A stretch of DNA of 64,000 bases from Haladaptatus sp. QDMS2 (GTDB lineage Archaea > Halobacteriota > Halobacteria > Halobacteriales > Halococcaceae). The position numbers were made by a program, and so were the translations under genes. Positions 9,781-56,668 of this stretch are shown in pieces. Position 1 is the stretch's first letter. Each line of letters opens with the position of its first letter. The DNA lies in NCBI RefSeq assembly GCF_029338295.1, contig NZ_CP119793.1, forward strand, positions 186,001-250,000. The letters run 5' to 3'. The notes under the pieces were generated by a model. It was not told the DNA's origin, did no database searches, and saw nothing but the letters and a program-made list of their open reading frames with translations.

Positions 9781-11784
9781 TCACCGGCCAACTTGACGTG
9801 TCAAGACGAAGACTACCAGCGCGAAGAAGAGCACACCCAGCCCTGTCTCGAGCGTCGCTATCACTTCACCAGCAGGACTCACGCTGAGTTGTCCGTATCC
9901 AAGCCCGGTGAACGTTGAGAGACTCAGAAGGAGGCCGAACAAAGGCGCGATATATCCAACCTCGAGGTACCCCACCGGCCCCAGATTAGTGTGTGTCAAC
10001 CCCATTGCAGGATAAACGAAGGGCATCACTCCAATGACGAGGACTGCCGTCCGCTTCACTAATCGTGAAAGCGACTCTCCGTAATCCGTCGTAATCTGGG
10101 AGAACCGGTTGATATAGAGTGGGACAGTCGCTCCCTGTTCGCGGTGGAAGCGTTGTTCGAGCTCTTTCCTGTTACGGAAGTAATGGGTAGCGAAATCGCC
10201 GAAGGCGTTGTCCCTCATGACTTGCTCGAGCGTGCCGTAGACGGACATCGCCTTCCGAATCGATGATGTTTGCGTAGTAGCAGTCTCGTGGACCTCGGCG
10301 TCGGAGCGCGGGTCATAATTGACGTACAAGTTCGAATTGATTTCAGCTAGGTTCTCTTCGGTGTTAATCTCATTGAACTCGGTTCCCCCTCCGATGCGTG
10401 CCGATTCGAGCATCGCCCCGTACATCGATGCGCCCTTGAAATCGGCGCGGAAGAGCTCGGTCTGATCGAACGCGACCCGTTCAACGTTCGCGTTGACGAA
10501 GCTAGCACCACTTGCCTTCGCGTCCGTGATTACCGCGTCGCTGATATCCGCACGGTCGAACCGAGTCTCGACGAGCCGAGCCCCGGAGAACCGCGCAGCG
10601 TCCAACCGGACGTCGCGTAAATTACCACCACTCAAATTAGCGTCGGTGAAGTCGAGCCCCTTGGCGTTCTGCGATTGTAAAACAATACTCTCGAGGTTTG
10701 CATCCTGGAACGATGCCTCGTCGAGGATTGCTTCCGTTAAATCGGAACCACTGAGATTGGCTTCGTCGAAGACGCTACCCTTGAGATTGCACATTCCGAA
10801 GGTCGTATCAGGGATGGAGGCATTCCTGAAGGAGACTTCCTGGAGGTTCGCGTCTATGAACCGTGCATTGGACAACGTCGCATGTTCGAAGGAAGCACCG
10901 GTCAGCGTCGCCCCATCTAACAAAGCGCCAGAGAGGTTCGCACGGTCGAAGCGAGCTCTCCTAAGAAACGTTCCGGTTAGGTCCGTACCCTCTAGTCGTG
11001 CGCCGCTCAAATCGACGCCCTCGAGCGTCGCCCGTCTGAGATTCGCATCGTCGAGGATGGCCCCGCTGAAGCGGCATTCCGCGAGATCCTCGGTCAGGGT
11101 CGCGTTCGTGAGGTTGGCGCCACGAAAGTCTGCCCCCTTGATTTTCGCGTAGGTGAAGTCCGCACCTTTCAGCTCTGCACCACGAAGATCCGCACCCTGG
11201 AGATTCGCGCCGCGGAAGTTCGTTCCGGCAAGCTCCGAGTAGGAAAGGTCAGCTCCACGAAGTTGTGCATCCTCGAGTTGCAAGGTTCCGAATGAGGATC
11301 CAGAGAAGTCCATTTTATCACCGATGATTTGCTCCCTGGATTTCGAAATTGCATGGAGCGTCAACGGCTCTTCATTGGAATTCTTCGTTTCCTCTGTCAC
11401 GCCATCGTCAGTCGAGGCGACGTCTGCGACCGTCTTGGAGTCATCAAGCATATCCAGGAGAATCTCGGCTTCGAACTCATCTTCCGGGGCACCACCTGCA
11501 GCGAGATCCTCCCTGCGCCAATCATTCTCGATTGGGGCAACCTTCAACGGGTAGTCGATATCGAATGGTATTTCGAACGATTCTTTGGAGTCGTCGGGTA
11601 TTGCGCCCGTCAACGCTGCAGAGATTGCAGCCACGAACGGGCCGACGATTTCTGCCGTATCAATACGGTAGACGATGAGTGGGTCGCCCGATTCGATATC
11701 CAGCGGCTCGGGATAGCGGAGCACCCCGTCTGCGATGGTCGTTTCGAGGAATGACTCGTCGCCAGGGAACACCCAGACGGTCAT
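9781..11784 (-). CDS. Pentapeptide-repeat protein with C-terminal two-TM pore domain, coupled to drmC
   Basis: 667 aa. Residues about 1-95 (VWVFPGDES..., GDPLIVYR, IVGPFVAA, DIDYPLKV) resemble a PUA-like EVE/DCD domain, a fold that reads modified bases. Residues about 158-470 are a long run of A(D/N)LxG pentapeptide repeats, forming a right-handed beta solenoid. The end holds a hydrophobic segment at about 576-596, a helix at about 608-628 followed by the filter-like TGLGYG, and a last membrane helix at about 640-664, as in two-TM ion channels (Ion_trans_2). It overlaps the drmC stop-start region by 4 nt (11781-11784), so it is part of the same minus-strand operon. A DISARM-linked membrane effector is inferred. 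The PUA-like call is the least certain part. Confidence 0.8.
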   Translation of the reverse strand: MTVWVFPGDESFLETTIADGVLRYPEPLDIESGDPLIVYRIDTAEIVGPFVAAISAALTGAIPDDSKESFEIPFDIDYPLKVAPIENDWRREDLAAGGAPEDEFEAEILLDMLDDSKTVADVASTDDGVTEETKNSNEEPLTLHAISKSREQIIGDKMDFSGSSFGTLQLEDAQLRGADLSYSELAGTNFRGANLQGADLRGAELKGADFTYAKIKGADFRGANLTNATLTEDLAECRFSGAILDDANLRRATLEGVDLSGARLEGTDLTGTFLRRARFDRANLSGALLDGATLTGASFEHATLSNARFIDANLQEVSFRNASIPDTTFGMCNLKGSVFDEANLSGSDLTEAILDEASFQDANLESIVLQSQNAKGLDFTDANLSGGNLRDVRLDAARFSGARLVETRFDRADISDAVITDAKASGASFVNANVERVAFDQTELFRADFKGASMYGAMLESARIGGGTEFNEINTEENLAEINSNLYVNYDPRSDAEVHETATTQTSSIRKAMSVYGTLEQVMRDNAFGDFATHYFRNRKELEQRFHREQGATVPLYINRFSQITTDYGESLSRLVKRTAVLVIGVMPFVYPAMGLTHTNLGPVGYLEVGYIAPLFGLLLSLSTFTGLGYGQLSVSPAGEVIATLETGLGVLFFALVVFVLTRQVGR

Positions 11785-12683
11785 CGCCCACCCACCGGGA
11801 GGTCGACCAATCGGGCGCTTGCGAACACCTCATCGAAAATCGTCGCGATATCGTCCACCGGTGGACCTTCGATAAGGACGCCCACCTCGAAGTTCGACCC
11901 CAAGCTCGTCGTCGTTAGGTTCGCGCTTCCGACGTAAGCGATGGAATCATCGACGACCATCACCTTCGCGTGGGTCGCCACCGCCTGTCTCCCTGATTCG
12001 TCGAGCTCGAACAGTTCACGGACGTCCAACAGCCGCCGGGCTTCCGCATCAAGTTCATTGTGCATCCGGTTGAATGTCGCCCTGTGGCTCGGCTCTGTCA
12101 CCTCGCGCGTCAAGATTTTCGTCACCGCCCCCTTCCGTGGGAGGCCGATGATGTCACCGATAATCCGTTGTTGTGGATCGAAGTACGGATTCGCGATACG
12201 GACCGATTCGCGAGCTTCAAGCAACAACCGACGGAGGCGCGATGGCAGCGGGCCCACGGTCTGACTCGCCAATCGGGTCACGGTCGTGCCGGGGGGGACC
12301 GTCGTCAACGTCTCGACCTGAGTCAGGTCGGACTCCAGGGGACCTTCGCTCTCGAGCGCTCTGACCGCGATTCGTTGCTGGGTCAGGACCTCGAGGACGC
12401 GATCCCGATTGAAGGCGTACTCCGAGTCGACGAGCGATCCACCCACGGCGACCCGGCTTGCAGCTTCGGTCTTCAACAGCCCGATTAAGACCGCTTCCTG
12501 TGCCCGTCTGCCGAGAGCCGAACCGCTCCGATTGAACACCGCTCGGCCGCTCGCAATCATTTCGTCCGCCGCCTCGAACCACTCTATGAGCGTCTGGATG
12601 GCCTCCTCGTCTCGAAGGGACCCTGCGATGGTGTAGTCATTACAGAGATTGTTGAACCGGTCCTGGGAGTGCTCAGCGACCAT
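11781..12683 (-). CDS. drmC: DISARM protein DrmC, phospholipase D-like
   Basis: 300 aa from the ATG at 12683, 4 nt after the drmB stop. An upstream in-frame ATG at 12731 would overlap drmB by 44 nt and is less likely. PLD-superfamily proteins use an HxK(x)4D motif. One copy is visible: HAKVMVVD in ATHAKVMVVDDSIAYVGSAN near residues 233-252, followed by NLTTTSLGSNFEVGVLI. The first half has only IANPYFDPQQR, without a full HKD, as expected for DrmC-type proteins, which carry a single PLD domain. DrmC belongs to the DISARM core but is dispensable in the characterised Bacillus system. Its place after drmA and drmB fixes the identification. Confidence 0.85.
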   Translation of the reverse strand: MVAEHSQDRFNNLCNDYTIAGSLRDEEAIQTLIEWFEAADEMIASGRAVFNRSGSALGRRAQEAVLIGLLKTEAASRVAVGGSLVDSEYAFNRDRVLEVLTQQRIAVRALESEGPLESDLTQVETLTTVPPGTTVTRLASQTVGPLPSRLRRLLLEARESVRIANPYFDPQQRIIGDIIGLPRKGAVTKILTREVTEPSHRATFNRMHNELDAEARRLLDVRELFELDESGRQAVATHAKVMVVDDSIAYVGSANLTTTSLGSNFEVGVLIEGPPVDDIATIFDEVFASARLVDLPVGGR

Positions 12684-12687
12684 GCGA

Positions 12688-14571
12688 TTAGATATCCCAG
12701 AAGGCCGGAACCTTTGCTCCATCCCCCACAAGAACGGTCCTGTCCAGTGTGTTGTTGAACGACTGGCAGGTGAACTCGCTCACGTGCATGCATGCGTGAC
12801 AGGCAGCTCCCGACTCGTCTTCGATGCATGCGGGATCGTAGATACACTGGACGGCGTGCTTCTTCGCCTCGTCGACCCAATCATGGAGGCGGGTCTTGAA
12901 CAGGGTGAACATCCCGCCGAGAGCGAAATGCTCCATGCTCTCGGCGTAGAGGATAATGGATGGTACCGTCGGGAGGATGAGCTCCGAGATGCTGTCGGAA
13001 TCCAACCCACACTGCTGGCTGGCGGTCGACATCAGTGCATGGCTCATCGTATGGAGCAGCTGGTACACTTGCTCGGTCATCTCGTCCTCAATCGGTGTGA
13101 ACGGGTTCTGCAGCTCCGTCGGGTCGATGTTCTCGAGGAACCAGGTCTTGAGTGCGACCTCGTCTTCGAGGTCGGGTGCGTTGGCTCCGTTCAGCACGCC
13201 AGCATCGAGCAGCCACTCGATGATAGCCTTCCTATCTATCTCGAGGACGATAGCCTCCGATGGCGATCGATCGCCGTACGCGGTCAGCGCATCGCTCGAG
13301 GCGGACTTCTCGAACGCCTTCAGGTCGACCTTGCTCGCCTGGATGTCGTCTCTGGTGTAGCCGAAAACCACTGAGAGCAGTGGGAAGCTGTCGACAATCC
13401 ATGCGTCAGACACGTTGATACTTCGCAGTCGTTTGCGGTAGAGTCCGGCCTGGCGGTACTTTCGCTCGAACTTTGGATCGTCGACGTAATCTGAGAGTGG
13501 ACGCGGGACCGGATGGCGGTTCACGTTCCTGACGTGCTGGCGCGGTCCTTCGTACCCCTCCGTCGAGCGGATGAAGGTGAAGAGCTCGTGGGCGATATGC
13601 GAAAACCGCGTCGAGTCGTTCGGCAAATCTACCCTCGTTTCGTTCTTTTTCGCTATCTCCACACGGCCAGGAAGCCCGGTCTGTGCGCTCCCGAGCGCGT
13701 CGAGGATGTCATCAGCAACGTCAGCAGGCACCTCTTTGAGGCGGTCTTCGATACCTGCCAACTGCTCGCCATCGATACCGCGTCGCGTCGCGACCGATTC
13801 GAGGGTGATGCCTTCCTGGTTCAGGTCGAGTAACCCAAGGTGCGCATGCATTAGCACCCGCGCCCACTCGTCGTTGAAGACGAGATCTCGAGCCTCCGGT
13901 CCCACGGGTGGAATCTCGACCATCACCTCCCGCTGTGGGTAGTAGACCGAACCGCTCTGAAGCGGGCTGGCCTCGCTGACGTACTCCGAACACCCGCTAC
14001 ATGGGCCGGTCAAGGATTTAATCTTCTGGCGGCACTTCCGACACCGGAACTCGAAGGTGTTGACGTTGTCTGGATCCCCACGCTTCAGAAAGACGTCTTC
14101 CCAACCGTGGCCAGGCTTATCACACGCTTTCGGCATAATGTTCGAGACCGCCCCACAGTCATGGGTCAAGACCCATTGCAGCTGGTGTAACTCGCCTTCA
14201 CTACACCGGGTACAGGTTCCCTTCGTCGACGCGAGGTGCTTGTGGTTCTTTGGGTTGAACACCGCGTTGCACTGTCGACACACCATCGTCATTGGGAAGA
14301 GGTCGCCCTGGACCTCCTTGGGTCGGTAGATATCGATGGCCGCGTTCTCGATGTCGTTCCACGGCTTCTCGTCGCTGTTGCGGAACTCCTTGACAGCGCC
14401 GGCGATGCGTTTCATCACCCGCTTCTCGTCGACGTTCTCCATGCGGTCGACCTTCCAGTCATCGACCTGCATTGAGAAGCCCTCGCGCCCGTAGCTGAAC
14501 AGTGCGCCAGGCGTGAACGAACTGAGTACTTGTGCGATTCCACGCCGCATCTCCGCATTACTATTATCCAT
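12688..14571 (-). CDS. drmB: DISARM protein DrmB (DUF1998)
   Basis: 627 aa. DrmB works with the DrmA helicase in DISARM. Two zinc-binding CxxC clusters lie in the N-terminal third (CRQCNAVF...CTRC near 97-120, CRKCRQ...CSGC near 175-195). The C-terminal DUF1998 signature is intact: CIYDPAC, then AACHACMHVSEFTCQSFNN and LDRTVLVGDG (residues about 577-620). The ATG shares one base with the drmA stop (TGATG), so drmA and drmB are translationally coupled. The gene sits between drmA and drmC in the usual DISARM order. Confidence 0.9.
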   Translation of the reverse strand: MDNSNAEMRRGIAQVLSSFTPGALFSYGREGFSMQVDDWKVDRMENVDEKRVMKRIAGAVKEFRNSDEKPWNDIENAAIDIYRPKEVQGDLFPMTMVCRQCNAVFNPKNHKHLASTKGTCTRCSEGELHQLQWVLTHDCGAVSNIMPKACDKPGHGWEDVFLKRGDPDNVNTFEFRCRKCRQKIKSLTGPCSGCSEYVSEASPLQSGSVYYPQREVMVEIPPVGPEARDLVFNDEWARVLMHAHLGLLDLNQEGITLESVATRRGIDGEQLAGIEDRLKEVPADVADDILDALGSAQTGLPGRVEIAKKNETRVDLPNDSTRFSHIAHELFTFIRSTEGYEGPRQHVRNVNRHPVPRPLSDYVDDPKFERKYRQAGLYRKRLRSINVSDAWIVDSFPLLSVVFGYTRDDIQASKVDLKAFEKSASSDALTAYGDRSPSEAIVLEIDRKAIIEWLLDAGVLNGANAPDLEDEVALKTWFLENIDPTELQNPFTPIEDEMTEQVYQLLHTMSHALMSTASQQCGLDSDSISELILPTVPSIILYAESMEHFALGGMFTLFKTRLHDWVDEAKKHAVQCIYDPACIEDESGAACHACMHVSEFTCQSFNNTLDRTVLVGDGAKVPAFWDI

Positions 14572-17500
14572 CAGTGGCCACCTTCTTTGAACGACTCCAC
14601 GACGACGGTGGAGTACCGGTTCGGAATGATGTCGATTTGTTGGTCGATATCCCGGAGGCTATTCATCGGCCCGTGCTCGTCCTCGGCGTCACCCGTCACC
14701 ACATTCGCGATGAACTCCTCGCGGGGATCCTTCCCCAGGGGATCTTCGACCAGCCGGTCCCACACTTTATCGAACTGATCTTTGATGCGCTCACGGTAGA
14801 GGTTTATCCCGTGAACGTCCGACCACTCTTGTTCCTGTTCCTCCGTAACCGAGTAGGCCCGCTTGATAAACTCGAGGGCGTCCTCGCTGGTGATAAGGTC
14901 ACGGTCTAGGGCTTCGTTGTACCCCTGGAATTGGTAGAGCGACTTCTCGGTCTGCCCTTCGAACTCGTGATGGTAGTACTGGAGGAACAGCCCGACTATG
15001 AGTCCGGGCATTGTCCGGTCGATAGCGAATTGGGCCCATCGCTCGAGCGGAGTCGCCTCGACGAGTAGGTCCTGGTAGCGGTGGTAATGTTCGAACTTTG
15101 TGTAATGCGAGCGATCTCGAGCGCGAATCGCGTCGAAGAGGACGAACACTGTCCCAGGATACCTTCGACCGACGCGTGAGTACGCCTGGATGTACTCGGC
15201 AGTGTTCCGAGGCATCCCGAAGAAGGAGATGAAGTTCAGCTTGTCGATGTCTACACCGTGTGAAATCATCGACGTCGCGATGACGATATCGATAGGCCGA
15301 TCGGGATTGTCAGATTCCAACCGCGCTAGCGCGTCGCGGACCACGTCCATGTCTGTCTCTCCCGTAAGGGGGACCGATTTGAGTTCGTGATAGGGCTCGC
15401 CGTACGCCTTCAGCTGCTCGTTGAGCATCTGGTTGACGTTACGCTGCAACATATCACTCTTCGTCTTCGCGATGTTGTAGTTGACCTGTACCTCATACAT
15501 TCCGAGCAATTTTTGGTAGATGTCCTTGCGCTCAGCCACGTCCGTGGGCAGGTCGAGTGGACCACCGAGTTGTGATTCCGGAATCTCCGCGAGCGCAGCA
15601 TCCAGTCCGTCAAGGTCATCAGATTCCAAATCTCCCTGGAGTTCCTGGACGAGCATTGCCCGTTCGCGGATGATGGAGTTGATGGCCAAGGTTCGCGAGA
15701 TGGTCCGAGGTATCGCCCCAACCATTCGACGCCCGAGTTGATATGGATCTTCGTACGCATAGAAGGACTGCCGCAGCCGCGGCCCCTGTGTCGGGAAGAC
15801 GTTCGTGTCCCGCCAATAGAGCGCGTTTACCTGTGACGAAGCTCCCTTGATGGTCGCGGTCGCCGCCACGATTTTCATCTGCCACCGGCCGTCAGTGTAG
15901 CGGTTCACCAACTCTTGGATGAACGTCTCGTAATGAGAATCGAACGCACCAAATTCCTCCCGGAGCAGGTGCAGCTCGTCTTGGATGAGTATGGATGGCG
16001 GATCTACAGGCTCTACCGGAGTCAAATCGGCGCTGTCGCATCGGAGCTTTTTCGGGTAGGAGTTGTCGGCCATGAAGCACTCCTCCTCGCTGGTGAGGCC
16101 GTGCTTCTGGCAGCGATGCTTGACGCGACCGAAGAGCGTCCGCATCCTGCGCTGCCAGCCGACGATGGCGATTTTGTCGATGGTGCTCACCACGAACGTG
16201 GGAGCGTGACGGTAGACCTCCTCGTCGGTGATGTAGATGGGTAGCTCTGCTGTCTTACCACCCTGGTGTTGCACCTCTGGGCACTCAGGGTTCTCGCACT
16301 GATGGATGATTCGCATTCGCTCCAAGTCGCCCGTGACCGAGACCGTCTCGTCAGCGTCGCAGTACGGACAGTCCTGGACCATCAGCCACTCCTGTTGCTT
16401 GTCAGGGTCGTCCCTTGCCTCCTTGACGTAGTTCGTGTCGCCTCCACGATCGCTCATCGAGTAGGTCTTGTTCGGCGTGTTGTTCCGACCGACAAAGTAG
16501 CCGACACTGAACGATTCACCTGCCATCGCCGAATCGTCCCGGCGGATAGTTTCGGCCATGCAGAGGACGTCGGCGATGCGCTGGAGTTGTTGCAACGAGA
16601 GCAGGCGCAGTGGGAACTTCGTGAGCGCGGTCATCCCGAACTCCTTCCCCCGGAGGCGGTCGTAAAACGCCGCGAAGACAACCAATCCAAGGTATGCTTC
16701 GGTCTTCCCACCACCAGTCGGGAAGTAGATGACGTCACCGACATTGAGCGCATCAACGATATCCCGCTCTGGGTCTGCTTGCGCGACGATATCCGGGAGC
16801 GTCATGACGATGAAGACGATTTGGAAGAGCCGCCATTGCACGTAATCTTCACCCATCTCGGTGAAAGTCTCGTTCAGCGCGCGGAACGCCTTCTCAACCT
16901 GTGGGTCGTTCGCGATGAGTTCACGCCCCTGATGGAACCGCTCTCGTTCGGCAGCAAAGTCCCTGAGCGTCTTCTGGTACTCCTTCTGTGCCGCCGACGT
17001 TTTGCCAACCAGTATGTCATCTTCGAGATTTTCGTACTGCTCGTAGGCCGAGTCCATTTCAGCTTCGATGTTCGCGAGGACGCCATCAATGTCCCCATGT
17101 GCCAATTCGCTGAAGGGCGCGTCAACGGTCTCTCGGGAGTGATACTTCGGCTGCTCATATACAGGGACAGTGGTCGTCTGAAGACCGGTGACCGGATTCT
17201 TGCTCATACGCTCGACCGCGCAGTTCTCACCGATGGCGTAAATGTTCCCGTCGTACTGGTAGTGATCTCGAATCTCCTCGGATGGGAAGGATTTGAACAA
17301 TGGCGACCCGGCCTCGACCCCGAGAGTGACATCGAAGAGGTAGGACTGCCAATCCTCGTCGGGTTCCTCTGAGTTTGGATAGTCTTCACCGAAGCCGTTG
17401 ACGAGCGAGACCGAGACGGCTATTCGTCCGTCGTCACGCTGGCTGGCGGTGATTCGGAGGTACGCCGTCCACTCGACGGGTTTGGGCGTCTCGGAGAACA

Positions 17501-18278
17501 CCTCCTCGAGATGTGCCTCGAACGATGGTTCGTCGGTAAGGCTCTCCGCTGGAACAGAGTCGGCCTCCCAGCGTTCGACACCATCTGTGGATTCGCAATA
17601 GACCCGCTCGGCTCCGTGGTACGCCTCTCGCGCCGCCTGTAACTGATTGGTTATATCGTAGTGTAGCCGTCGGTCGCGTTTGGCGGCGTCACGAATCTCC
17701 GCCCCAGGGACAGAGATTGGTTCAATGGACGGCGATAGCCGCTCGAACACCCTCAGGAGGTTTTGTTCATCGTAGGTGGCGGTCCCTCCATCTGCGTGGA
17801 CCTCCCGGTCCTCGTTCGTCACCGCGAGTTCGCCATAGGAAGCCTCCTCCAATTCCCCGTATCGGAGTTGCTCCTCGTATTTAGGATAACGACGGTAGAA
17901 GAGCTTTAGATTGGGTTGGAACTCGAACTCTGCGTCGTCGAGCTCGTCGGAATCGACCTGGAACGTCAGCCCAAGCGAGAACGGTGCGACATCTTGGCCG
18001 AAGTTCTGGAAGCTATCGTCCTCTGCTTGCGCCTTCCGGAAGCGATACTGACTCGCAACAACGCCGGCGAAACATCGACGACTCGGTGTGTTCCCGTAAA
18101 GCGTCTGTTGCTCTGGTCCTCGTCCCGTAATCCGGTCGATTAACCGTCCTGTAATGACATGGTCCATCGCCTGATGGCGACGGTACTTGGTATCCCCCTC
18201 TGTATCGAACGCCTCTTCGGGTGGTCGGGTGTACTCTGGATCGTTCCGAGGTGGAATTGAATCGAAACGTGGTTTCAT
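14571..18278 (-). CDS. drmA: DISARM helicase DrmA
   Basis: 1235 aa superfamily 2 helicase, the DNA-engaging core of DISARM. Motifs seen: Walker A FPTGGGKTEAYLG (about 518-530), motif II QDELHLL (about 763-769), motif III AATATIKG, and the C-terminal RecA lobe with IATSMISHGVDIDK and AYSRVGRRYPGTV (about 1010-1040). A CPYCDAD...CENPEC insert between lobes suggests a zinc site. The first 450 residues are a large family-specific region. The gene lies 82 bp downstream of the drmE-like gene and overlaps drmB by one base. Its length and motif set fit DrmA, and it is the most secure DISARM marker here. Confidence 0.92.
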   Translation of the reverse strand: MKPRFDSIPPRNDPEYTRPPEEAFDTEGDTKYRRHQAMDHVITGRLIDRITGRGPEQQTLYGNTPSRRCFAGVVASQYRFRKAQAEDDSFQNFGQDVAPFSLGLTFQVDSDELDDAEFEFQPNLKLFYRRYPKYEEQLRYGELEEASYGELAVTNEDREVHADGGTATYDEQNLLRVFERLSPSIEPISVPGAEIRDAAKRDRRLHYDITNQLQAAREAYHGAERVYCESTDGVERWEADSVPAESLTDEPSFEAHLEEVFSETPKPVEWTAYLRITASQRDDGRIAVSVSLVNGFGEDYPNSEEPDEDWQSYLFDVTLGVEAGSPLFKSFPSEEIRDHYQYDGNIYAIGENCAVERMSKNPVTGLQTTTVPVYEQPKYHSRETVDAPFSELAHGDIDGVLANIEAEMDSAYEQYENLEDDILVGKTSAAQKEYQKTLRDFAAERERFHQGRELIANDPQVEKAFRALNETFTEMGEDYVQWRLFQIVFIVMTLPDIVAQADPERDIVDALNVGDVIYFPTGGGKTEAYLGLVVFAAFYDRLRGKEFGMTALTKFPLRLLSLQQLQRIADVLCMAETIRRDDSAMAGESFSVGYFVGRNNTPNKTYSMSDRGGDTNYVKEARDDPDKQQEWLMVQDCPYCDADETVSVTGDLERMRIIHQCENPECPEVQHQGGKTAELPIYITDEEVYRHAPTFVVSTIDKIAIVGWQRRMRTLFGRVKHRCQKHGLTSEEECFMADNSYPKKLRCDSADLTPVEPVDPPSILIQDELHLLREEFGAFDSHYETFIQELVNRYTDGRWQMKIVAATATIKGASSQVNALYWRDTNVFPTQGPRLRQSFYAYEDPYQLGRRMVGAIPRTISRTLAINSIIRERAMLVQELQGDLESDDLDGLDAALAEIPESQLGGPLDLPTDVAERKDIYQKLLGMYEVQVNYNIAKTKSDMLQRNVNQMLNEQLKAYGEPYHELKSVPLTGETDMDVVRDALARLESDNPDRPIDIVIATSMISHGVDIDKLNFISFFGMPRNTAEYIQAYSRVGRRYPGTVFVLFDAIRARDRSHYTKFEHYHRYQDLLVEATPLERWAQFAIDRTMPGLIVGLFLQYYHHEFEGQTEKSLYQFQGYNEALDRDLITSEDALEFIKRAYSVTEEQEQEWSDVHGINLYRERIKDQFDKVWDRLVEDPLGKDPREEFIANVVTGDAEDEHGPMNSLRDIDQQIDIIPNRYSTVVVESFKEGGH

Positions 18279-21935: not shown

Positions 21936-22024
21936 GGGTGGACTTCCTCGTAAGAGTGGTGGCCGTGGAAAAATGAAAATGAACGGTACACCATCAAGGA
22001 TACCGAATCGAGGTATTTGACCAA

Positions 22025-22153
22025 GGTCCAATTGGACGTGACGCTTCTGTCGAGGAAATCGATGCAGGTTCAGATGCACACCTCGGTCACACGTTCAGGA
22101 ATCTCGTATCGAATGAACTTGACAACGCCGTTGAAGGTGCAAGAGTGAAATAA
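22025..22153 (+). pseudogene. Fragment of the N-terminus of a MutH/Sau3AI-like endonuclease
   Basis: The plus-strand frame reads GPIGRDASVEEIDAGSDAHL and then a weaker stretch ending in ARVK before TAA. The start matches GPIGRDASYEEIVAASDALL of the intact nuclease at 51025-51876 almost residue for residue. No Met precedes it, and the catalytic D...ExK segment is missing. It is therefore a 42-codon relic of a third member of this nuclease family. Confidence 0.75.
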
Positions 22154-22177
22154 TCGTAATGAGCCCCTCGAGATTAT

Positions 22178-28033: not shown

Positions 28034-28035
28034 CT

Positions 28036-31386: not shown

Positions 31387-31648
31387 CTGGATTACTAGTC
31401 AATTTCGGAGACAATCTCCATGTAACTTTCCCTCACATGGATTAATTAGAGAAAGCGCTAGTCTTGTGCTTCCCGTCCTTTTTCGTCAGACCATACATTT
31501 CATTCAGAATACTACTTAAATACACGAAGGGATGCTGGTCGCGAACACCGGCCGTCCATTCGATATACTCGACCCAGAAGTCGAGGACGCAGTTTCAAAC
31601 TTTAGCAACTCGACAAAATCGCAAGGGCGATTACTTGATTTTCAACCG

Positions 31649-48029: not shown

Positions 48030-48035
48030 CCCTTC

Positions 48036-50939
48036 ATGTACGATTCCGGCCAGCACGTTCATATTGACGGCCACCCGGCGGAGGTCATCTGCACATACAG
48101 CGTCGGCGACTTACAATATCTACGCGCGTACATCAAGGATGTCGGTGTCAAGACTGTCGCACTAAGAGATGTTGAAGTCGAAGAAGCCGATGATTCCATC
48201 GCCACGCTCACCGAGAAGGCGGCGGAGCTACACCCCCGCCACGAGGCTGTCTCAGCGGACCGATTCGACCTGCGTATCGAGGCGCTAAACCTTACCATCG
48301 CCCACGAGCAGGGAAAACTGCTCTCAATTTCGAACTCACTAGTTCGTCTCGAACCCTACCAACTTGCCTGTGTAAACGAGGTTATGCAGTCACTCAGACA
48401 ACGCGCACTCATCGCCGACGACGTCGGGCTCGGAAAAACTATCGAAGCGGGACTCATCCTCAAGGAACTGCAAGCACGTAATCGGTCCGATAGGGTTCTG
48501 TTCGTCGTCCCTGCACACCTCCAAAAAAAGTGGGTCCGCGACATGGACCGCTTCTTCGACCTCGACCTCACGGTCGCAGACCGCACTTGGGTCGATGGAG
48601 AGCGTCGCCGGCTTGGTGATGAAGCTAACATTTGGAATCAAGACAACTTACAGCTTGTCACGAGTATGGCGTTCCTCCGTCAAGATGGGTTCCAGTCCGC
48701 CCTCGAAGAGGCATTCTGGGATGTCGTTGTTATCGATGAAGCCCACAAGGCCGGCAAACGGGGTGAAACTCCTTCGAAAACCTCTCAGATGGCCGAACGA
48801 GTCGCCCACAATTCCGAATCATTGCTCCTGTTGAGCGCGACGCCCCACGATGGGAAAGGGGAGGGGTTCCGCTCGCTTATCAGTTACATCGACCCGTTCC
48901 TTGTTGCCGAGGATAGAGACCTCACCCGTGAAATGGTCCAACGGGTGATGATTCGTCGTGGAAAGACGACCATCTTTGATGAGAACGGTGAACGCCTATT
49001 CCCGAACAGGGATGTCCAGACCCTCGAGGTGTCGATGTCCCCTGCTGAGAAACAGCTGTACGTCGGTGTCACCGAGTACGTTCGCGACGTGTACAACCAA
49101 TCGGACCAGCTGAACCAACCTGCAATCGGCTTCGCGATGGCACTGATGCAAAAGCGCCTCGTCTCCAGTGTCGGAGCCATTCGTGCGACACTCCGTCGTC
49201 GGTTGCAAGGGCTTCTCACCGAGGGTGGCACGGACCAAGAACTCTCACGTGATGCTCGAGTGTATCTTGAGGGCGATGATCTCGAAGAGGAGGCCCGTGA
49301 AGCTGCAGAGCGTGAACTTGAACGGCTCACTATTCCGTCGGGTGACGCAGCCCTGCAAGCTGAAATCGACACTCTGCAAGAGCTCGTCGCTTTGGCAGAG
49401 AAGATTCCGGTGGATACGAAGACACAAAAGGTAAAACGCTACATCCAGCAGCTATTCGAGAAACATCTCGAAGAGAAGGTACTGTTGTTCACCGAGTATC
49501 GCGATACCCTCGAGTACCTTCTTGATGAGTTCGCAGACCAGCCATGGGCTGAAGAAATCCTCGTCATCCACGGCGACGTTTCGAAGGACGAACGTCAAGA
49601 AATAGAAGACGAGTTCAATTTTGGTGAACCACGGTTACTCCTCGCAACCGACGCCGCAAGTGAGGGTATCGATCTTCAGCACCGATGCCACATAATGGTA
49701 AACTACGAGTTGCCGTGGAATCCGAATCGGCTCGAGCAGCGCATTGGCCGAATTCATCGGTATGGGCAGGAAAAGGAGGTGAAAGTATGGAACTTCCAGT
49801 TCGACGGTACCCGCGAGAGCGAAATCTTCGAGTTACTACAAGAGAAGGTCGAACGAATCCGCTCGCAGGTCGGCTCTACCGCAGACGTCCTCGGGATGCT
49901 AGATGATGTTAACCTGGATAAACTCATCATGCGATCTGTCCAGAACAACGAGCCTGCTTCGGCGACGGCAAAAGAACTGGCCGAGCTCATCGAAGAGCGT
50001 GAAACAACACTCATGCAGTGGTACGACCGCAGCCTCATCGACCCGACCACGTTCGATGAGGAGAGTCGTGAGCGTATCCAGGCGGTGATGGATGATTCGG
50101 AAGATATCTTCGGCACCGAAGCCGACATCAGAGAGTTCGTCGAGCACGGCCTCGAGCTCTTCGGCGGCCATCTCGAGAAGTCGGGCAACCAGCTGTACAC
50201 GCTTCATATTCCCTCGCCCATCTCTGAGACTGGGGTCAGTGAAGAACGGGGGCCGATTACCTTCTCTCGGGAGTTCGCTCGCAATCACAAAGAAATCGAC
50301 TACCTCTCGCCCGATGACCCGATGATTACCAAGCTACGCGAACGGATACTGACTGATGATGGTGGGACGGTTGGGCTGAAGCTCCTGACTGCTGTTGAAG
50401 ACCCTGGAATCACTTTCGTTTATCGGGTAGCCTTCGAGGATGGGACTGGAAAGACACTTCGTGAAGAGTTGGTTCCTGTCTATGTCGATTTACCAAATGG
50501 GAACCCACGGCAACCACTTGGTGAGCAGGTTCTCACTACAGACACTATCCAGGCGAAACCAAATGGTGATACAATTCGTCAGTTGTTATTGGAACGAGAC
50601 CGCCTCGAGACAGAAGCTGAACGCTATATTGCGAAGATTATCGGGTCGTTGCAAGCTGAAATCGAATCTGTACGTACAGCTGATGTCACACAGGAACGAG
50701 AAGATTTAGAGGATTATGCAGCCGCAGAACGCGAACGTATTGAATCGTTCATCGAACAGTACGAAGTCCAAGCAGAAGCTGGTAAGGACATGACCATCTC
50801 TATTCGGAACCAACGCAACCGACTTGCACAACTCGAAGCGCGTATCAAGAAACGACAGGAAGAGCTGAACCGTCGCGAGCAAGTTGTCTCGATAGCTCCA
50901 GAAATAGAAGCGTACTGTCTTACACTTCCTGTGGGTTAG
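48036..50939 (+). CDS. brxHII: BREX SNF2-like helicase BrxHII
   Basis: 967 aa. SNF2/superfamily 2 motifs: DDVGLGKTIEAG (about 128-139), VVIDEAHK (about 230-237), LLSATPHDG (about 265), ATDAASEGIDLQ, and LEQRIGRIHRYGQ (about 564-576). The C-terminal 350 residues include a coiled coil (about 860-950). BrxHII is found in BREX types 3 and 5. The related DISARM protein DrmD has the same motifs. Location directly after pglX and divergent from brxA favours BREX membership, but sharing with the nearby DISARM genes cannot be excluded. Confidence 0.88.
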   Translation: MYDSGQHVHIDGHPAEVICTYSVGDLQYLRAYIKDVGVKTVALRDVEVEEADDSIATLTEKAAELHPRHEAVSADRFDLRIEALNLTIAHEQGKLLSISNSLVRLEPYQLACVNEVMQSLRQRALIADDVGLGKTIEAGLILKELQARNRSDRVLFVVPAHLQKKWVRDMDRFFDLDLTVADRTWVDGERRRLGDEANIWNQDNLQLVTSMAFLRQDGFQSALEEAFWDVVVIDEAHKAGKRGETPSKTSQMAERVAHNSESLLLLSATPHDGKGEGFRSLISYIDPFLVAEDRDLTREMVQRVMIRRGKTTIFDENGERLFPNRDVQTLEVSMSPAEKQLYVGVTEYVRDVYNQSDQLNQPAIGFAMALMQKRLVSSVGAIRATLRRRLQGLLTEGGTDQELSRDARVYLEGDDLEEEAREAAERELERLTIPSGDAALQAEIDTLQELVALAEKIPVDTKTQKVKRYIQQLFEKHLEEKVLLFTEYRDTLEYLLDEFADQPWAEEILVIHGDVSKDERQEIEDEFNFGEPRLLLATDAASEGIDLQHRCHIMVNYELPWNPNRLEQRIGRIHRYGQEKEVKVWNFQFDGTRESEIFELLQEKVERIRSQVGSTADVLGMLDDVNLDKLIMRSVQNNEPASATAKELAELIEERETTLMQWYDRSLIDPTTFDEESRERIQAVMDDSEDIFGTEADIREFVEHGLELFGGHLEKSGNQLYTLHIPSPISETGVSEERGPITFSREFARNHKEIDYLSPDDPMITKLRERILTDDGGTVGLKLLTAVEDPGITFVYRVAFEDGTGKTLREELVPVYVDLPNGNPRQPLGEQVLTTDTIQAKPNGDTIRQLLLERDRLETEAERYIAKIIGSLQAEIESVRTADVTQEREDLEDYAAAERERIESFIEQYEVQAEAGKDMTISIRNQRNRLAQLEARIKKRQEELNRREQVVSIAPEIEAYCLTLPVG

Positions 50940-51024: not shown

Positions 51025-51876
51025 TTATTGAGAGAAGTCGGAGAGACCGGATTGTCCTTGACTATCCCCAGTCAAGAACGTCTCAACCTCGGATGCATCG
51101 GTCGCACGTTCTTTCGACCTGGCCCATAGAGCCTCCTTCTTCACGTACTCAGACCGTCCCTTGGGAACGATTTCGAGGTTCGCATCATCAGCAAGCATGC
51201 GAAGAAGGAATCGAGATGGGATACGCCAGCTACGGCGTTCCGGCTTCTCCAGATGCGGGTGTCCACTGTTCACGACGTACGAACCTGGCTCTCGGTTCGG
51301 GAAGTCGTAGTTGTGCTTTGGACAGGTCTGGAGGATGTCGTTCCCGGCCTTCGTTTCACTCAGGTGTTCGCCCTCGAGAATCTGCTGGCGAATCGTTTCG
51401 TACTCAGCCTGAATCTGCTCGTCGAGGTCTTCAGATGGAGACCAGTGTTGCCACCAGACAAAGGGGAATTCACTCCGGTCGCCACCGTCATGATGGAACC
51501 AGACGACGAGCAGGTTCAGAAACTTCCTGTCGAGTTTCTTGATATCTCGCCAGTACTCGGTTTCAACGACTTCCGCATAGTCAATCATCCCAACACTCAG
51601 CGGTTCCTTCGGGTAAAAATAATCGCCGTACGACGTCTTCAGTGGCTTACACTTGAGCTCGATTCCCTCCTTCCGGAAATCAGGTGCAGGATCATTGTCG
51701 TTGGCCATCCCGTAGTAGATTTCTAACAGCTCCCCAAGTTCGCCTTTTACCTTAGTGGCCTCAGCGTCGATGAACCCTTTCTCAACGATGTCACCGAAGT
51801 TTTGCCCCAAGAGAGCGTCTGATGCGGCTACTATCTCTTCGTAAGAAGCGTCGCGGCCGATAGGTCCCATTTCCAT
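51025..51876 (-). CDS. MutH/Sau3AI-family restriction endonuclease, copy 2
   Basis: 283 aa from ATG 51876, chosen because GGAG lies 8 nt upstream and copy 1 has the same N-terminal length; the frame stays open to 51942. The catalytic triad is D66 (PAPDF), E73 and K75 (GIELK). Shared marks with copy 1 are the ASDALLG N-terminus, KPLKT, and TCPKH. The gene is convergent with brxHII and divergent from the C5 methylase at 52074, forming a nuclease-methylase arrangement like Sau3AI with its cytosine methylase. Site specificity is unknown; GATC is the family precedent. Confidence 0.84.
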   Translation of the reverse strand: MEMGPIGRDASYEEIVAASDALLGQNFGDIVEKGFIDAEATKVKGELGELLEIYYGMANDNDPAPDFRKEGIELKCKPLKTSYGDYFYPKEPLSVGMIDYAEVVETEYWRDIKKLDRKFLNLLVVWFHHDGGDRSEFPFVWWQHWSPSEDLDEQIQAEYETIRQQILEGEHLSETKAGNDILQTCPKHNYDFPNREPGSYVVNSGHPHLEKPERRSWRIPSRFLLRMLADDANLEIVPKGRSEYVKKEALWARSKERATDASEVETFLTGDSQGQSGLSDFSQ

Positions 51877-52020
51877 GATTACTTCTCCAATTTTCAAGGG
51901 GAAATAACTTATCAATATACAGTCATTTAATTCCACTATCAATCAGATTGGAATTATCACCTTCCAGTCATTTCCACTCGATAAAAATTACACCAATCAT
52001 ACATTCTTGAGCGATGCATT

Positions 52021-52043
52021 CAACGTTGCAAAACTAAACGTTG
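52021..52043. promoter_or_regulatory. Repeated CAACGTTG/AACGTTG boxes before a methylase gene
   Basis: CAACGTTG (52021-52028) is a perfect 8-bp palindrome. AACGTTG recurs at 52037-52043, 16 nt on, just before the methylase start at 52074. The spacing is compatible with an operator used for autoregulation between the nuclease and methylase genes. No controller protein gene was found next to it. Confidence 0.35.
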
Positions 52044-52073
52044 AAACCCGATGACGTCGCACTTTCAATAAGA

Positions 52074-53285
52074 ATGGGTTTGGAGACCGTCGAGTTATTC
52101 GCAGGAGTCGGTGGATTCAGAATCGGACTCGAAAGAGCCGGTCACGAAGTCATCTGGAGCAACCAGTGGGAGCCAAGCATCCAAGCCCAGCACGCATCGG
52201 AGTGCTACGTCGCACATTTCGGCGAAGAGAACCATACCAACGTAGACATCAAGCAAATAGACGAATCGAGCGTTCCTGACCACGACTTGCTTGTTGGAGG
52301 ATTCCCGTGCCAGGATTATTCGGTCGCAACGACAGGTGCCGAAGGTATTAAAGGGGAGAAGGGAGCTCTCTGGTGGGACATCGAACGCATCGCACGTGAG
52401 AAACGCCCAAATTACCTGCTCTTAGAGAACGTCAACCGGTTACTTCGCTCGTCTACGGACCAACGAGGACGTGATTTCGGTGTACTCCTCCATTGCCTTC
52501 ATGACCTCGGGTACACCGTCGAGTGGCGCGTCATCAACGCGGCTGATTACGGCTACGCGACGAAACGCCGCCGTGTGTTCATCTTCGCCGCCCAGGCGAA
52601 TACCGAGTGGGGGCAGTGGATGACCTCGAAGGTTGAAAAGCCTGATTACCTCACCCAACGAGGCTTCTTTGTCGACGAATTCCCCGTCGAAGATGTTCAG
52701 ACCCAACTGCCCATCGCTCATCCCCCGAACACGACGCTCGAAGGCGACCCGAAGGAGACGAGCGATGAGTTCGAATTCGATTTCGAGGAAGCTGGTGCGA
52801 TGGTCGATGGTGGCATCTGGACTCGAGAGGTTACACCTGTTTATCAGGGGGGGACAGTCCTCCGAGACGTACTGGAAACGGATGGTGTTCCTGAGAAGTA
52901 CTATCTCGATGAAGAGGAGGTTGAACAGTGGGAGTACGAGAAAGGTGCGAAGGAAATCGAACGGGAAACCGACGATGGGTACACCTACACCTTCAAAGAA
53001 GGAGCGATACCGTTCCCAGACCCGCTCAATGAGCCTGCACGGACGCTCCTCACGAGTGAAGGTACCACCGCTCCTGGCCGCGTGAAACACGTCGTCGAAG
53101 ATCCTGCCATCGGCCAACTTCGTATCCTCACGCCTCGTGAGGTCGAACGTATCATGGATTTCCCAGATGACTGGACCGATACCGGGATGCCCGAATCGTG
53201 GCGCTACACGTGTATGGGGAACGCACTGGTCGTCGGTCTCGTGGAACAGATGGCCGAACAGCTCACTCGAGATCCGGATAACTGA
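52074..53285 (+). CDS. DNA C5-cytosine methyltransferase, copy 1
   Basis: 403 aa from ATG 52074; the frame opens at 52041 with TTG, but family proteins start just before the motif I strand. Motifs: I VELFAGVGGFRIGLERAG; IV GGFPCQDYSVA with the catalytic Cys at about 79; VI LLLENVNRL; VIII YGYATKRRRVFIF; X MGNALVVGLVEQM. It transfers methyl from SAM to cytosine C5. Divergence from the MutH/Sau3AI-like gene suggests that it protects that enzyme's site. A TRD of about 130 residues lies between VIII and IX. Confidence 0.92.
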   Translation: MGLETVELFAGVGGFRIGLERAGHEVIWSNQWEPSIQAQHASECYVAHFGEENHTNVDIKQIDESSVPDHDLLVGGFPCQDYSVATTGAEGIKGEKGALWWDIERIAREKRPNYLLLENVNRLLRSSTDQRGRDFGVLLHCLHDLGYTVEWRVINAADYGYATKRRRVFIFAAQANTEWGQWMTSKVEKPDYLTQRGFFVDEFPVEDVQTQLPIAHPPNTTLEGDPKETSDEFEFDFEEAGAMVDGGIWTREVTPVYQGGTVLRDVLETDGVPEKYYLDEEEVEQWEYEKGAKEIERETDDGYTYTFKEGAIPFPDPLNEPARTLLTSEGTTAPGRVKHVVEDPAIGQLRILTPREVERIMDFPDDWTDTGMPESWRYTCMGNALVVGLVEQMAEQLTRDPDN

Positions 53286-53377
53286 ACGTCAACGAAAGTG
53301 TAATTTCTCGCACCTCGGACGGGTGAAATCGGTATCGGATCGAAAGTTCTTAATGCGAAGACGAACGAGAATGGTGT

Positions 53378-55243
53378 ATGAGCGAGAAGCCGAGGGCAAT
53401 CGATTTGTTCTGTGGTGGCGGCGGGTTCAGTGAAGGCCTTCGCCAAGCAGGATTCGAAATCACACACGCCGTCGACATCGATAGCGGTGCGGTCGAGACG
53501 CATGAACTGAATCATCCGGACACCGAGACCATCAAGAAAGACATCATGGACCTCGACCCAGAGGACCTACCCGACGACGTCGATGTCCTCTTCGGTTCGC
53601 CGCCATGTACCGAATTCTCCTGGGCAAAGAACGGCGGGGGCGGCGATATCGAAGCAGGGATGAAGCTCGTGAAGCGGTTCCTCTACTTCGTCGACGAACT
53701 CGACCCTGATTACTGGGTGATGGAGAACGTCCCTCGGCTGAACAACTACCTCCCAGAGACCATCGACTTCGCAGACGTTCCATGGGGTGAGGGAACCCAT
53801 AGCGTCGATATCACGAAGGTCATCCTCGAGGGTGATGACTATGGAACCCCTCAGCGCCGCAGCCGTCTCTTCTCGGGTGAGTTCCCCGTCCCGGAACCAT
53901 CGGAAGATTCGGTTCCGTCCTTCGGTGACATCAACCATCACTTCCCGACGCCCGCCACGGGTATCCCCGAAGGAGCGACGGCCACCGACCCGAACTACGA
54001 TATCGAACTCCCCGCAAAAGAGCTCACAGACCACTTCTACATCAGTCACGTCACGAACCGCGAGGCTGAGGAGATTCGCGTTCGCAAGGAAGACCACTCC
54101 TATTACGGCCGGATGAGCTTCCCCGACGACCCCGAGGTTCCATCGAGAACAGTACTCGCGACGAACCGCCGTGTGGCTCGTGAAACCCTCGTGATGGAAG
54201 AGGCAGATGAAGATACGCCAGATGGAATCAGTCGATTCCGGAAGCCAACGATTCGTGAAATCGCGAGTATCCAAGGATTCCCTATCACCTATCAGTTCAC
54301 GGGGAGCTCACAGGCGAAGAAATGGCGACGGGTGGGAGACGCGGTTCCTCCGACCATGGCGTTTCGCGTTGGCTGTGCGATTCGCGAAGCGATGGGACTC
54401 GACGTTCCAGAAAAACCAACCATCAATCGCGACACGCCACATCCGGAAACGAATCTGAATGAGAAAAATCCATCCTGGCGTGGCCGTCGTCGACTCTCGA
54501 TTTCACGCAACTTCCGGCATCACGTCCCGGTCGACAGCAAGCAAAAGTTCCGCGTGGACCTCGAGACAGACAAGGACAGCTCGCCACCGCACCCGTTCGC
54601 CGCGCAAATCGACCAGGATTTCACCCATCCGGTCGAGTTCGGTGCCAAGCTCTATCGTGGTTACTCGACGGACGTCGTCTCGACCCAGGTCGACTTTGAG
54701 ACGGCAGCTGAACTGGTAGAACAGCTCATCGAGACGCAGCCTGAACAGGCGGACACGGTCCATCAGGTGGTCTCTGGATTCCTAACCCGCCTCGGTCCTG
54801 TGACCCCAGACGCGACGACGTTACAGGCGATTCGCTCCCGGAGAGCGGACCGTGACGAGCCTCTCGAGTTCACGCTGCTCTCGACCATCTCCTCGTACGA
54901 CGGCGACGGCATCGTCGACGAAGCGCTCCCGAAGGATGTAGCCGAAGGCATCGACCCACTCACGGTCCCGGACCTGTTCGACGATGCGACGGAACTCCCT
55001 GTTAGGGTTCTGCTCAAACTAGTCGGCGCCACCTATCTGGCTGAGAAACTGAATCGGTGTTCGAAGTGGCTGCTCGCGAATCCCGAGGAGGCGTTCATCC
55101 CAGAGGATTTCTCGGTAGACCGTTCGGAAATCGAGTTCACAGGCTTGGAATGCCAACGCACATACTGTATCGATTCAGAAATGGAGAGGCTTCTCATCGA
55201 CTCACAAACAGGCGAGAACGCTGTGTCTGCGAGTACGGACTGA
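53378..55243 (+). CDS. DNA C5-cytosine methyltransferase with C-terminal extension, copy 2 (possible DISARM methylase)
   Basis: 621 aa. Motifs: I DLFCGGGGFSEGLRQAG; IV GSPPCTEFSWA (catalytic Cys about 77); VI WVMENVPRL; VIII DYGTPQRRSRLF; X GDAVPPTMAFRVG at about residue 320. About 280 residues follow motif X, beginning SRNFRHHVPVDSKQKFRVDL and ending GENAVSASTD, with no recognised domain. Class 2 DISARM uses a C5 methylase (DrmMII). This is the copy whose C-terminal end is duplicated as a scar beside the DISARM operon at 22178-22243, so it is the better DISARM candidate. It has its own promoter gap of 92 bp. Confidence 0.88.
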   Translation: MSEKPRAIDLFCGGGGFSEGLRQAGFEITHAVDIDSGAVETHELNHPDTETIKKDIMDLDPEDLPDDVDVLFGSPPCTEFSWAKNGGGGDIEAGMKLVKRFLYFVDELDPDYWVMENVPRLNNYLPETIDFADVPWGEGTHSVDITKVILEGDDYGTPQRRSRLFSGEFPVPEPSEDSVPSFGDINHHFPTPATGIPEGATATDPNYDIELPAKELTDHFYISHVTNREAEEIRVRKEDHSYYGRMSFPDDPEVPSRTVLATNRRVARETLVMEEADEDTPDGISRFRKPTIREIASIQGFPITYQFTGSSQAKKWRRVGDAVPPTMAFRVGCAIREAMGLDVPEKPTINRDTPHPETNLNEKNPSWRGRRRLSISRNFRHHVPVDSKQKFRVDLETDKDSSPPHPFAAQIDQDFTHPVEFGAKLYRGYSTDVVSTQVDFETAAELVEQLIETQPEQADTVHQVVSGFLTRLGPVTPDATTLQAIRSRRADRDEPLEFTLLSTISSYDGDGIVDEALPKDVAEGIDPLTVPDLFDDATELPVRVLLKLVGATYLAEKLNRCSKWLLANPEEAFIPEDFSVDRSEIEFTGLECQRTYCIDSEMERLLIDSQTGENAVSASTD

Positions 55244-55557
55244 TTGATTTCCGGATTATCTAGTGAGTACATCTCATAGTTCTGTTCATTCCTTCAGTTC
55301 CTTTGGGTGTCATTTTTCCACATTCTACCAGCGCACGGCTTCACTCAGCTCACTCCACGTTCATCAAAGTCTCGTCGGTATTCTTTAGAGTCGGTACACT
55401 AGATAGAGCTGAAACCTACATCTGAACTAACAAATGCCAAAACCACAGGGTTTATATTGCCCTGCGGGAAGGCTCTCACGAATAGTTCACCCATCTCCAA
55501 TATGATTATTCACTACTCTGGCACCACCTGAATTCGATTTTCCTCTCAGATTGTACC
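55244..55557 (+). promoter_or_regulatory. Intergenic region with a TATA box inside an inverted repeat
   Basis: No gene in 314 bp. At 55446-55464, CAGGG and CCCTG frame the AT-rich box tttatattg, so a dimeric repressor could cover the TATA box. Transcription from it would start near 55480 and give a leader of about 75 nt to the gene at 55558. The rest is AT-rich without recognised structure. Confidence 0.45.
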
Positions 55558-56061: not shown

Positions 56062-56668
56062 GTTACAGGGGCCACCGACCGTGAACTGGAGGGGACTCAA
56101 CGGCGGCGAGAAGGATGTCCTCGCGAAGTTCATGTTCGAGGGGCCACTCGACATCACTGCTCTCGAGTTCGTTCACTGTCAGGTCCCACTCGGCATCCAG
56201 CGTGTCGACGACGCCTACCGCGTCCAAGACGGGAAACCGACCGGGTACAATGAGAAGTTCGCGCGGTCGTACGCGGAGTTGTTCAGCGAGAATGGCGCTC
56301 CGTGCGGGTTCTGGAAGTCAGGAAAAATCTCTGACATAGGGGGGTTCCTCTTGCAGTCCTACACGCGGTCTATCGACGCCATTGCGGTCGGTCCAGCTGA
56401 GGTACACCTACTCGAGATAAAAACATCTGGTGAGAAAATCGAGAGTTCGAGCGATGTCGATAAACCACTGGGCCAGATTGTGTCCTACACCAACCTCTTC
56501 AAGGAGGATTATCCGGATGTTTTCCGGAATCGGGCGCTCAAGCGTTGGATAATCACGATGGAGTCAAAGGTCGATATGACGCTCGTTCGCCCAATTCTCG
56601 CCGAGTTCGACGTTGGCTTCTTCGACTGCACTCGACCTGACTGCACCATCATTCCAGAGCGAGTATAA
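56054..56668 (+). CDS. Predicted PD-(D/E)XK nuclease
   Basis: 204 aa. SIDAIAVGPAEVHLLEIKTS (about 108-127) gives the core: Asp ending one strand, then Glu-x-Lys in the next, the PD-(D/E)XK restriction-endonuclease signature. Further on, QIVSYTNLF places a Gln and a Tyr where RecB-like members have Q-x3-Y. Its start overlaps the 55558 gene by 8 nt. Family and target are unknown. The motif is better formed than in the 4440-5126 protein. Confidence 0.65.
   Translation: MSKLQGPPTVNWRGLNGGEKDVLAKFMFEGPLDITALEFVHCQVPLGIQRVDDAYRVQDGKPTGYNEKFARSYAELFSENGAPCGFWKSGKISDIGGFLLQSYTRSIDAIAVGPAEVHLLEIKTSGEKIESSSDVDKPLGQIVSYTNLFKEDYPDVFRNRALKRWIITMESKVDMTLVRPILAEFDVGFFDCTRPDCTIIPERV

Follow-up and report, generated by a model that had tools for sequence, protein, structure and literature searches.

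The stretch analysed here (the window; 64,000 nucleotides, positions 186001–250000 of contig C3, NZ_CP119793.1) belongs to the haloarchaeon Haladaptatus sp. QDMS2 and carries a defence island in which genes for an AddAB-like helicase-nuclease stand beside a type 5 bacteriophage exclusion (BREX-5) system. A predicted AddAB–BREX-5 partnership, supported by comparison with other genomes, is the new part of this analysis, and the recurrent association was overlooked by the initial annotation of the island. We lean, by a modest degree, towards reading the island as the content of an exchange slot within a megaplasmid of Haladaptatus type, in which the AddAB-like pair belongs functionally with BREX-5 and would degrade DNA as the second step. 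Evenly balanced, in our judgement, is the broader proposal that haloarchaeal BREX-5 has a dedicated, interchangeable helicase-nuclease arm, with distant AddAB lineages swapped at the same position, in a two-stage machine that marks or nicks DNA and then shreds it processively.

The association was counted in 391 genomes of the class (Halobacteria), with split gene fragments joined before counting and loci paired by contig. AddB was detected in 86 genomes (97 loci) and the BREX-5 PglZ in 62 (65 loci), and 28 genomes contained both (Fisher P = 6.6e-6). AddB was encoded on the same contig at 18 PglZ loci and within 25 kb at 15, this window included. With the window excluded, 14 loci were linked within 25 kb, in 13 of the 27 genomes with both, against about 0.4 expected. 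As controls, we considered two other accessory gene families. HsdR of type I restriction systems (HSDR_N) occurred in 129 of 332 genomes, 21 of which also contained BREX-5; it was within 25 kb of BREX-5 in none of the 17 genomes with listed places, the nearest being about 45 kb away (G020). The family of the methylase–HEPN fusion protein encoded in the window was within 25 kb of BREX-5 in 1 of 15 other genomes (G338). AddB exceeded both HSDR_N (13/27 versus 0/17, Fisher P = 4e-4) and the fusion family (versus 1/15, P = 0.006).

We mapped 20 BREX-5 loci, 15 of them chosen for an AddB within about 40 kb and 5 without; the window was not among them. Direct adjacency, with no open reading frame of at least 120 amino acids (aa) in between, was found in 11 of 14 linked loci and took three forms: brxH, addB and addA in the same direction (5 loci), brxH convergent with addB–addA (2) and addB–addA divergent from brxA (4). 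AddB lies 39 kb from BREX-5 in G361, and in G188 AddAB is encoded three open reading frames from brxA at a contig end, with PglZ on another contig. Among PLSDB plasmids, AddB was present in 42 records and the BREX-5 PglZ in 19, with AddB within 20 kb in 8 of these 19; at least 2 of the 8 (NC_019963 and NZ_CP096023) coincide with loci of the genome set, and the two sets thus overlap. Plasmid pJ7-1 of Natrinema J7-2, one of the eight, encodes all BREX-5 genes, with addB–addA beside brxA. In pHS3 of Halobacterium salinarum R1 (L239), likewise one of the eight, an ISH1-type element is located between addB and pglZ, where brxH is expected. The genes listed there include no brxH, and the BREX of this strain may be broken.

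The two partners do not share a single history. BREX-5 proteins of G388 and G319 are 95–97% identical, with AddB at 31% and AddA at 39%, and both AddAB pairs lie divergent from brxA at the same place. In G078 and G128, AddB (94%) and AddA (89%) are close against only 50–75% for BREX-5, with AddAB at opposite ends, and in G162 and G163 AddB is 87% identical and BREX-5 51–76%. An AddB tree of 52 rows, comprising three named plasmids and, of the 97 genome loci, that of the window and 48 others, requires at least eight changes of the linkage label. Given these mixed identities and label changes, AddAB and BREX-5 have met several times, and AddAB is a putative interchangeable module repeatedly recruited to BREX-5. 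The corresponding PglZ tree took its unlinked rows from the 30 best PglZ loci alone, so that members of one clade that lack AddAB are missing from it; its clade proportions were not used.

Several observations weigh against a partnership. No partner was found within 25 kb for 82 of the 97 AddAB loci and 50 of the 65 BREX-5 loci, and therefore neither system is obligatory for the other. Unlinked AddAB genes are located near other defence genes (a DrmD/BrxH-like helicase, a Lamassu-like SMC protein and IetA), as would be expected of a general defence accessory or of simple clustering in islands. Several BREX-5/AddAB clusters adjoin plasmid ParA or Orc1/Cdc6 genes, and shared plasmid geography may contribute to the linkage. 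In the AddB tree, the window's own protein forms a long, isolated branch separate from the main linked clade, and no BREX accompanies the addB relic of a sister plasmid, DYSN1. Finally, both controls were compared by eye from lists and comprise two gene families only, and the HSDR_N comparison used only genomes with listed places.

It is possible, though we consider it rather unlikely, that AddAB, BREX-5, the MutH/methylase units and the neighbouring genes of a defence island system associated with restriction-modification (DISARM) are independent modules, each selected alone and gathered in one hotspot by plasmid exchange slots. Such independence would agree with the three different contents seen in this hotspot, with the other defence genes that AddAB adjoins and with this DISARM type being unlinked to BREX-5 elsewhere. 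It would account less readily for AddAB being a much more frequent neighbour of BREX-5 than the two control families, mostly in direct adjacency, and for the replacement of AddAB in place by a distant AddAB (G388/G319).

Other arrangements of these genes were also observed. In G137, G147 and G167, unlinked AddAB (L142 16963–18777 and 15807–17057; L144; L219) lies beside a DrmD/BrxH-like helicase of 585–604 aa and a protein of about 400–440 aa, perhaps another AddAB-using system. On contig C7 of G241 (L211, L212), a BREX-5 that lacks AddAB precedes an AddA-like helicase of another kind, 1166 aa long, together with DISARM-like drmB and drmA. Two pglX-like genes per BREX-5 cluster were present in G036, G198, G319 and G041.

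The BREX cluster of the window encodes brxA, brxB, two brxC, pglX and brxHII (PADLOC) together with the family-specific PglZ, which we take to be the full parts list of BREX type 5; it differs from that list in having AddAB and a MutH-like nuclease alongside. The NPPY motif of PglX and the Walker A motifs of both BrxC proteins are intact, as are Walker A, DEFQD and IIDYKTG in AddA and DYKTG and the C-terminal Cys cluster in AddB. AddAB loads on double-strand ends and breaks the DNA down as it unwinds it. Like the AddAB of structure 3u44, the window pair combines a UvrD helicase with a C-terminal nuclease (AddA) and a nuclease with Fe-S type cysteines (AddB); unlike it, the pair is archaeal and accessory, and its AddB lacks an N-terminal Walker A. 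We use the name AddAB-like because AddB scored far below the cut-off of the bacterial equivalog TIGR02773 (79 bits, cut-off 904). Among the 52 AddB proteins, the nuclease and Cys cluster were present in all and an N-terminal Walker A in none, which, with both nuclease motifs present, suggests an enzyme with one motor and two blades. An AddB scan of genome contigs returned 19 stretches that fit a pattern, and no relative was confirmed among them. The genome of the window encodes NurA on contig C1 (the one member examined of the resident archaeal resection set), and AddAB is thus not the sole candidate resection enzyme.

AddAB most likely acts as a helicase-nuclease that degrades DNA after marking or nicking by BREX. 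In the mechanism we propose, BREX (PglX, BrxA, BrxB, two BrxC and BrxHII) would detect DNA without its methyl mark, and PglZ would nick this DNA, or BREX would stall its replication. Breaks or collapsed forks would then yield free double-stranded ends, on which AddAB, with its ATP-driven helicase and two nucleases, could load and degrade the DNA. Methylated host DNA would escape nicking and thereby present few ends. Further ends could come, in this island, from the MutH-like nuclease encoded between pglZ and addB.

The mode by which BREX stops virus DNA is still debated. Type 1 PglZ nicks DNA, and auxiliary nucleases have been proposed to follow and extend the damage, according to a 2026 survey of BREX auxiliary nucleases that lists PD-(D/E)XK, HNH, OLD, HEPN and other types (PMC12839542). 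The words AddAB, RecB, UvrD and exonuclease do not occur in the main text of that survey. The account given there names no processive helicase-nuclease, and an AddAB-like partner would supply a concrete, testable second step. We found no description of a BREX–AddAB linkage in the literature searched, which consisted mostly of the accessible parts of non-subscription articles, including PMC12839542, PMC12458937, PMC10544981, PMC10609329, PMC12707154, PMC7911831, PMC12904381, PMC8565338 and PMC11078007. Natrinema J7-2, with BREX-5 and AddAB, is already in culture. If the partnership holds, it would be a case of archaea adapting a repair-type enzyme as a defence module.

The genome comprises 3.88 Mb in three contigs, including the 331-kb replicon (330,897 bases) that holds the window. 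We take this replicon for a Haladaptatus-type megaplasmid because its best plasmid matches are those of Haladaptatus sp. DYSN1 and YSMS36. Both flanks of the island are about 90–99% identical among the three plasmids, and the defence contents in between differ. Against DYSN1 (NZ_CP120471), the left side is collinear at 98% up to window position 4684 and at 85% up to 5122, and the right flank is 98.5% identical from 50963 on; the 45.8 kb in between (5123–50962) are exchanged for 33.4 kb of other genes. The sole part shared inside this segment is 466 bases at the start of addB (30967–31432, 90%). The DYSN1 slot contains a different DISARM, whose DrmA, DrmB and DrmC match other PADLOC models and are accompanied by a PbeA/DrmD-like helicase and a GHKL ATPase, as well as an IetA-like gene and a truncated addB. 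In the comparison with YSMS36 (NZ_CP119784), the shared left flank ends at -12567 and the shared right flank starts at 57243, and the 62-kb slot of YSMS36 holds tRNA-guanine transglycosylase genes, DpdJ-like and Druantia-like helicases, a DUF262 gene, two integrases and a SacI-family restriction gene. Since one backbone carries three contents, we read the locus as a slot in which whole defence cassettes are swapped, and it offers a natural experiment, with whole defence sets exchanged on an almost identical backbone.

Other islands are known to stack defence genes in a similar way. Both the hotspot and the stacking described in the initial annotation are real: modules scattered at unrelated places, with no hotspot, were not what the comparison of relatives, made on three alleles only, returned. 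Its relics of nuclease and methylase genes stood in part. Our relic scan of the window, queried with proteins encoded by Haladaptatus plasmids, by DISARM loci and by the window itself, recovered one MutH-like nuclease relic inside the island and no methylase relic. In DYSN1, a methylase relic (52% to residues 425–561 of methylase 2) and the AddB relic are both present. The MutH relic and the DYSN1 addB relic record losses. As for cassette borders, no direct repeats of at least 24 bases were found in 4900–57400, the four junctions inspected at base level had no clear border signature, and no tRNA or Rfam RNA that could serve as an attachment site was found in the window.

The same plasmids bear on a very improbable alternative, in which AddAB, carried by plasmids for repair or recombination, would aid cassette exchange and mark recombining plasmids rather than defence. 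Its abundance in PLSDB and the ParA or Orc1/Cdc6 neighbours at some AddAB loci would be expected of such an enzyme. AddAB is, however, untied to the shared backbone here, as PLSDB shows an AddB relic only in DYSN1 and no match in YSMS36, and it follows BREX-5, on either side of it.

Within these slots, DYSN1 encodes a 495-aa protein with no Pfam or PADLOC match (L016 34190–35677) at the position that BREX occupies in the window. On a second DYSN1 plasmid, NZ_CP120472 (68286–73477, L017), the two small genes and TFB from the right of the island are present in a further copy, with a transposase adjoining. The Dpd-like genes with Druantia/DpdJ-like helicases in YSMS36 (NZ_CP119784 46983–109170; L018, L019) are possibly a BRIGADE-type system of the kind reported in PMC12458937.

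The initial annotation also proposed that DISARM and BREX may be linked functionally through shared parts. We dropped this as the main story, as it had no recurrence in relatives: of the 8 other genomes that carry this DISARM type, none has BREX-5 nearby, and in G265, which has both, they are about 0.6 Mb apart. The system itself is DISARM-like rather than a complete DISARM, since its own DNA methylase (DrmM) appears to be missing. The window shares drmA, drmB, drmC (HKD motif intact) and a DrmE-like gene in one operon with the DISARM class that has DrmE; it differs in the HEAT-like N-terminus of the DrmE-like protein, the pentapeptide protein in the operon, the adjoining fusion gene and the absence of an own methylase. 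The DrmE-like protein (1144 aa) matches its family weakly, and its structure model (mean predicted local distance difference test score 72) gave only weak HEAT and superfamily 2 helicase-like Foldseek matches, which were not used. It occurs in 9 of 391 genomes, with no match in plasmids. The neighbourhoods were read in 4 of the 9: the order pentapeptide–drmC–drmB–drmA–drmE-like is identical in the window, G186 and G138, and in G264 drmE-like–drmA is followed by the contig end.

A sharing of methylase or helicase between DISARM and BREX, with the methylase-less DISARM borrowing a methylase from the island, seems improbable. Related DISARM loci in G138, G186 and G037 carry 5-methylcytosine (m5C) methylases that are 48–89% alike (31–33% for G054) within the stretches read, the only relatives of such methylases in this genome are the two island methylases, and BrxHII scores as DrmD-like (450 bits, cut-off 610). 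Those island methylases are, however, of low identity to the DISARM ones (26–34%), and the eight other genomes offer no recurrent DISARM–BREX-5 neighbourhood.

Among the four loci read, the fusion gene adjoins drmE-like in three, namely the window, G186 and G264, but not in G138. In G111 its immediate neighbour is AddAB, and in G279 the methylase half occurs near AddAB, so the fusion is not bound to DISARM alone. Its N-terminal part has an N6-methyladenine (m6A) methylase fold (Foldseek: M.BseCI, CamA, M.TaqI), followed by a CBS-like region; the C-terminal HEPN-type motif is conserved in the alignment, and the rear half resembles the DS11 antiphage family. Because its motif IV reads SPTH instead of the PP of most relatives, the window fusion is probably inactive as a methylase. 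It is plausible that the dead methylase domain senses and the HEPN domain kills or induces dormancy.

The features are listed in Table 1. As the initial annotation had it, a minus-strand stack of about 34 kb holds DISARM, the HEPN fusion, AddAB, a nuclease and BREX: 14 consecutive genes (9781–43672, 33.9 kb), in the order pentapeptide protein, DrmC, DrmB, DrmA, DrmE-like, fusion, AddA, AddB, MutH/Sau3AI-like nuclease, PglZ, BrxC, BrxB, BrxC and BrxA. Divergent modification genes follow, namely pglX–brxHII and the two m5C methylases on the plus strand; one more MutH-like nuclease is encoded there on the minus strand. Its seven modules can be counted as DISARM, fusion, AddAB, MutH 1, BREX, MutH 2 with methylase 1, and methylase 2, the GmrSD-type gene lying just outside. 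Because of its intergenic gaps, the run is more than one operon; gaps suggest separate operons for brxA to pglZ, pglX–brxHII, addB–addA (2 bases apart) and drmE-like to pentapeptide.

Table 1. Features of the window, in window coordinates
Feature	Coordinates	Strand	Evidence
Left boundary genes of hotspot: DUF429 protein and 228-aa protein, common with DYSN1	3634..5126	+	
GmrSD/DUF262-type restriction protein, first gene within the variable segment	5571..7376	+	Pfam GmrSD_N 107.8 bits; DGQQR and HNH-like motifs
Pentapeptide-repeat protein, hydrophobic C-terminus, last DISARM operon gene	9781..11784	-	Pfam; same place in G186, G138
DISARM core: drmA 14571–18278, drmB 12688–14571, drmC 11781–12731	11781..18278	-	PADLOC 1225, 570, 181 bits
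DrmE-like protein, HEAT-like N-terminus	18361..21795	-	NCBIfam DrmE_fam E 3.2e-11, 42 bits, below cut-off (80)
MutH-like nuclease gene relic	22013..22150	+	tblastn 50% over 46 aa of nuclease 2, E 7e-7
Fusion: m6A-methylase-like domain (motif IV degenerate, SPTH), CBS-like region, HEPN-type RNSVAHY motif	22438..23910	-	DS11_antiphage E 6e-7
AddA-like UvrD helicase with PD-(D/E)XK nuclease	24206..28033	-	Best PDB AddA 3u44_A, E 1.4e-41
AddB-like pseudo-helicase with PD-(D/E)XK nuclease and Cys cluster	28036..31386	-	
MutH/Sau3AI-like nuclease 1, without adjoining methylase	31649..32497	-	Pfam MutH 88 bits; Sau3AI 148 bits, cut-off 300
BREX-5 operon brxA, brxC1, brxB, brxC2, pglZ	32668..43672	-	PglZ_5 (NF033444) 810 bits, cut-off 250
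BREX-5 divergent pair pglX, brxHII	43791..50939	+	PglX 1839 bits, BrxHII 1552 bits
MutH/Sau3AI-like nuclease 2, divergent from m5C methylase 1	51025..51942	-	98% identical in DYSN1
m5C methylases 1 (52041–53285) and 2 (53378–55243)	52041..55243	+	Pfam DNA_methylase; proteins 100% identical in DYSN1
Right boundary block: TFB, EEP phosphatase, SWIM, OmdA, TBP genes; in all three plasmids	57243..62730	.	

Rightward of the methylases, two small intact open reading frames (55558–56668) precede the block of TFB, phosphatase, SWIM and TBP genes; they lie in the block shared with DYSN1 and outside that shared with YSMS36. The G+C content of the pglX region (44000–48000) is 0.43–0.46 against about 0.55 in the surroundings, hinting at a recent or foreign origin of pglX. 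Nuclease 2 resembles Sau3AI/MutH restriction-modification in lying divergent from an m5C methylase; unlike such systems, nuclease 1 scores below the Sau3AI cut-off and has no adjoining methylase, and the third copy is a relic. A MutH-like nuclease was rejected as a standing BREX-5 part, as no MutH homologue was found in the 20 mapped BREX-5 loci; one homologue (53%) is located near AddAB in G369. Within the window, the MutH-like genes and the relic lie at three junctions between modules.

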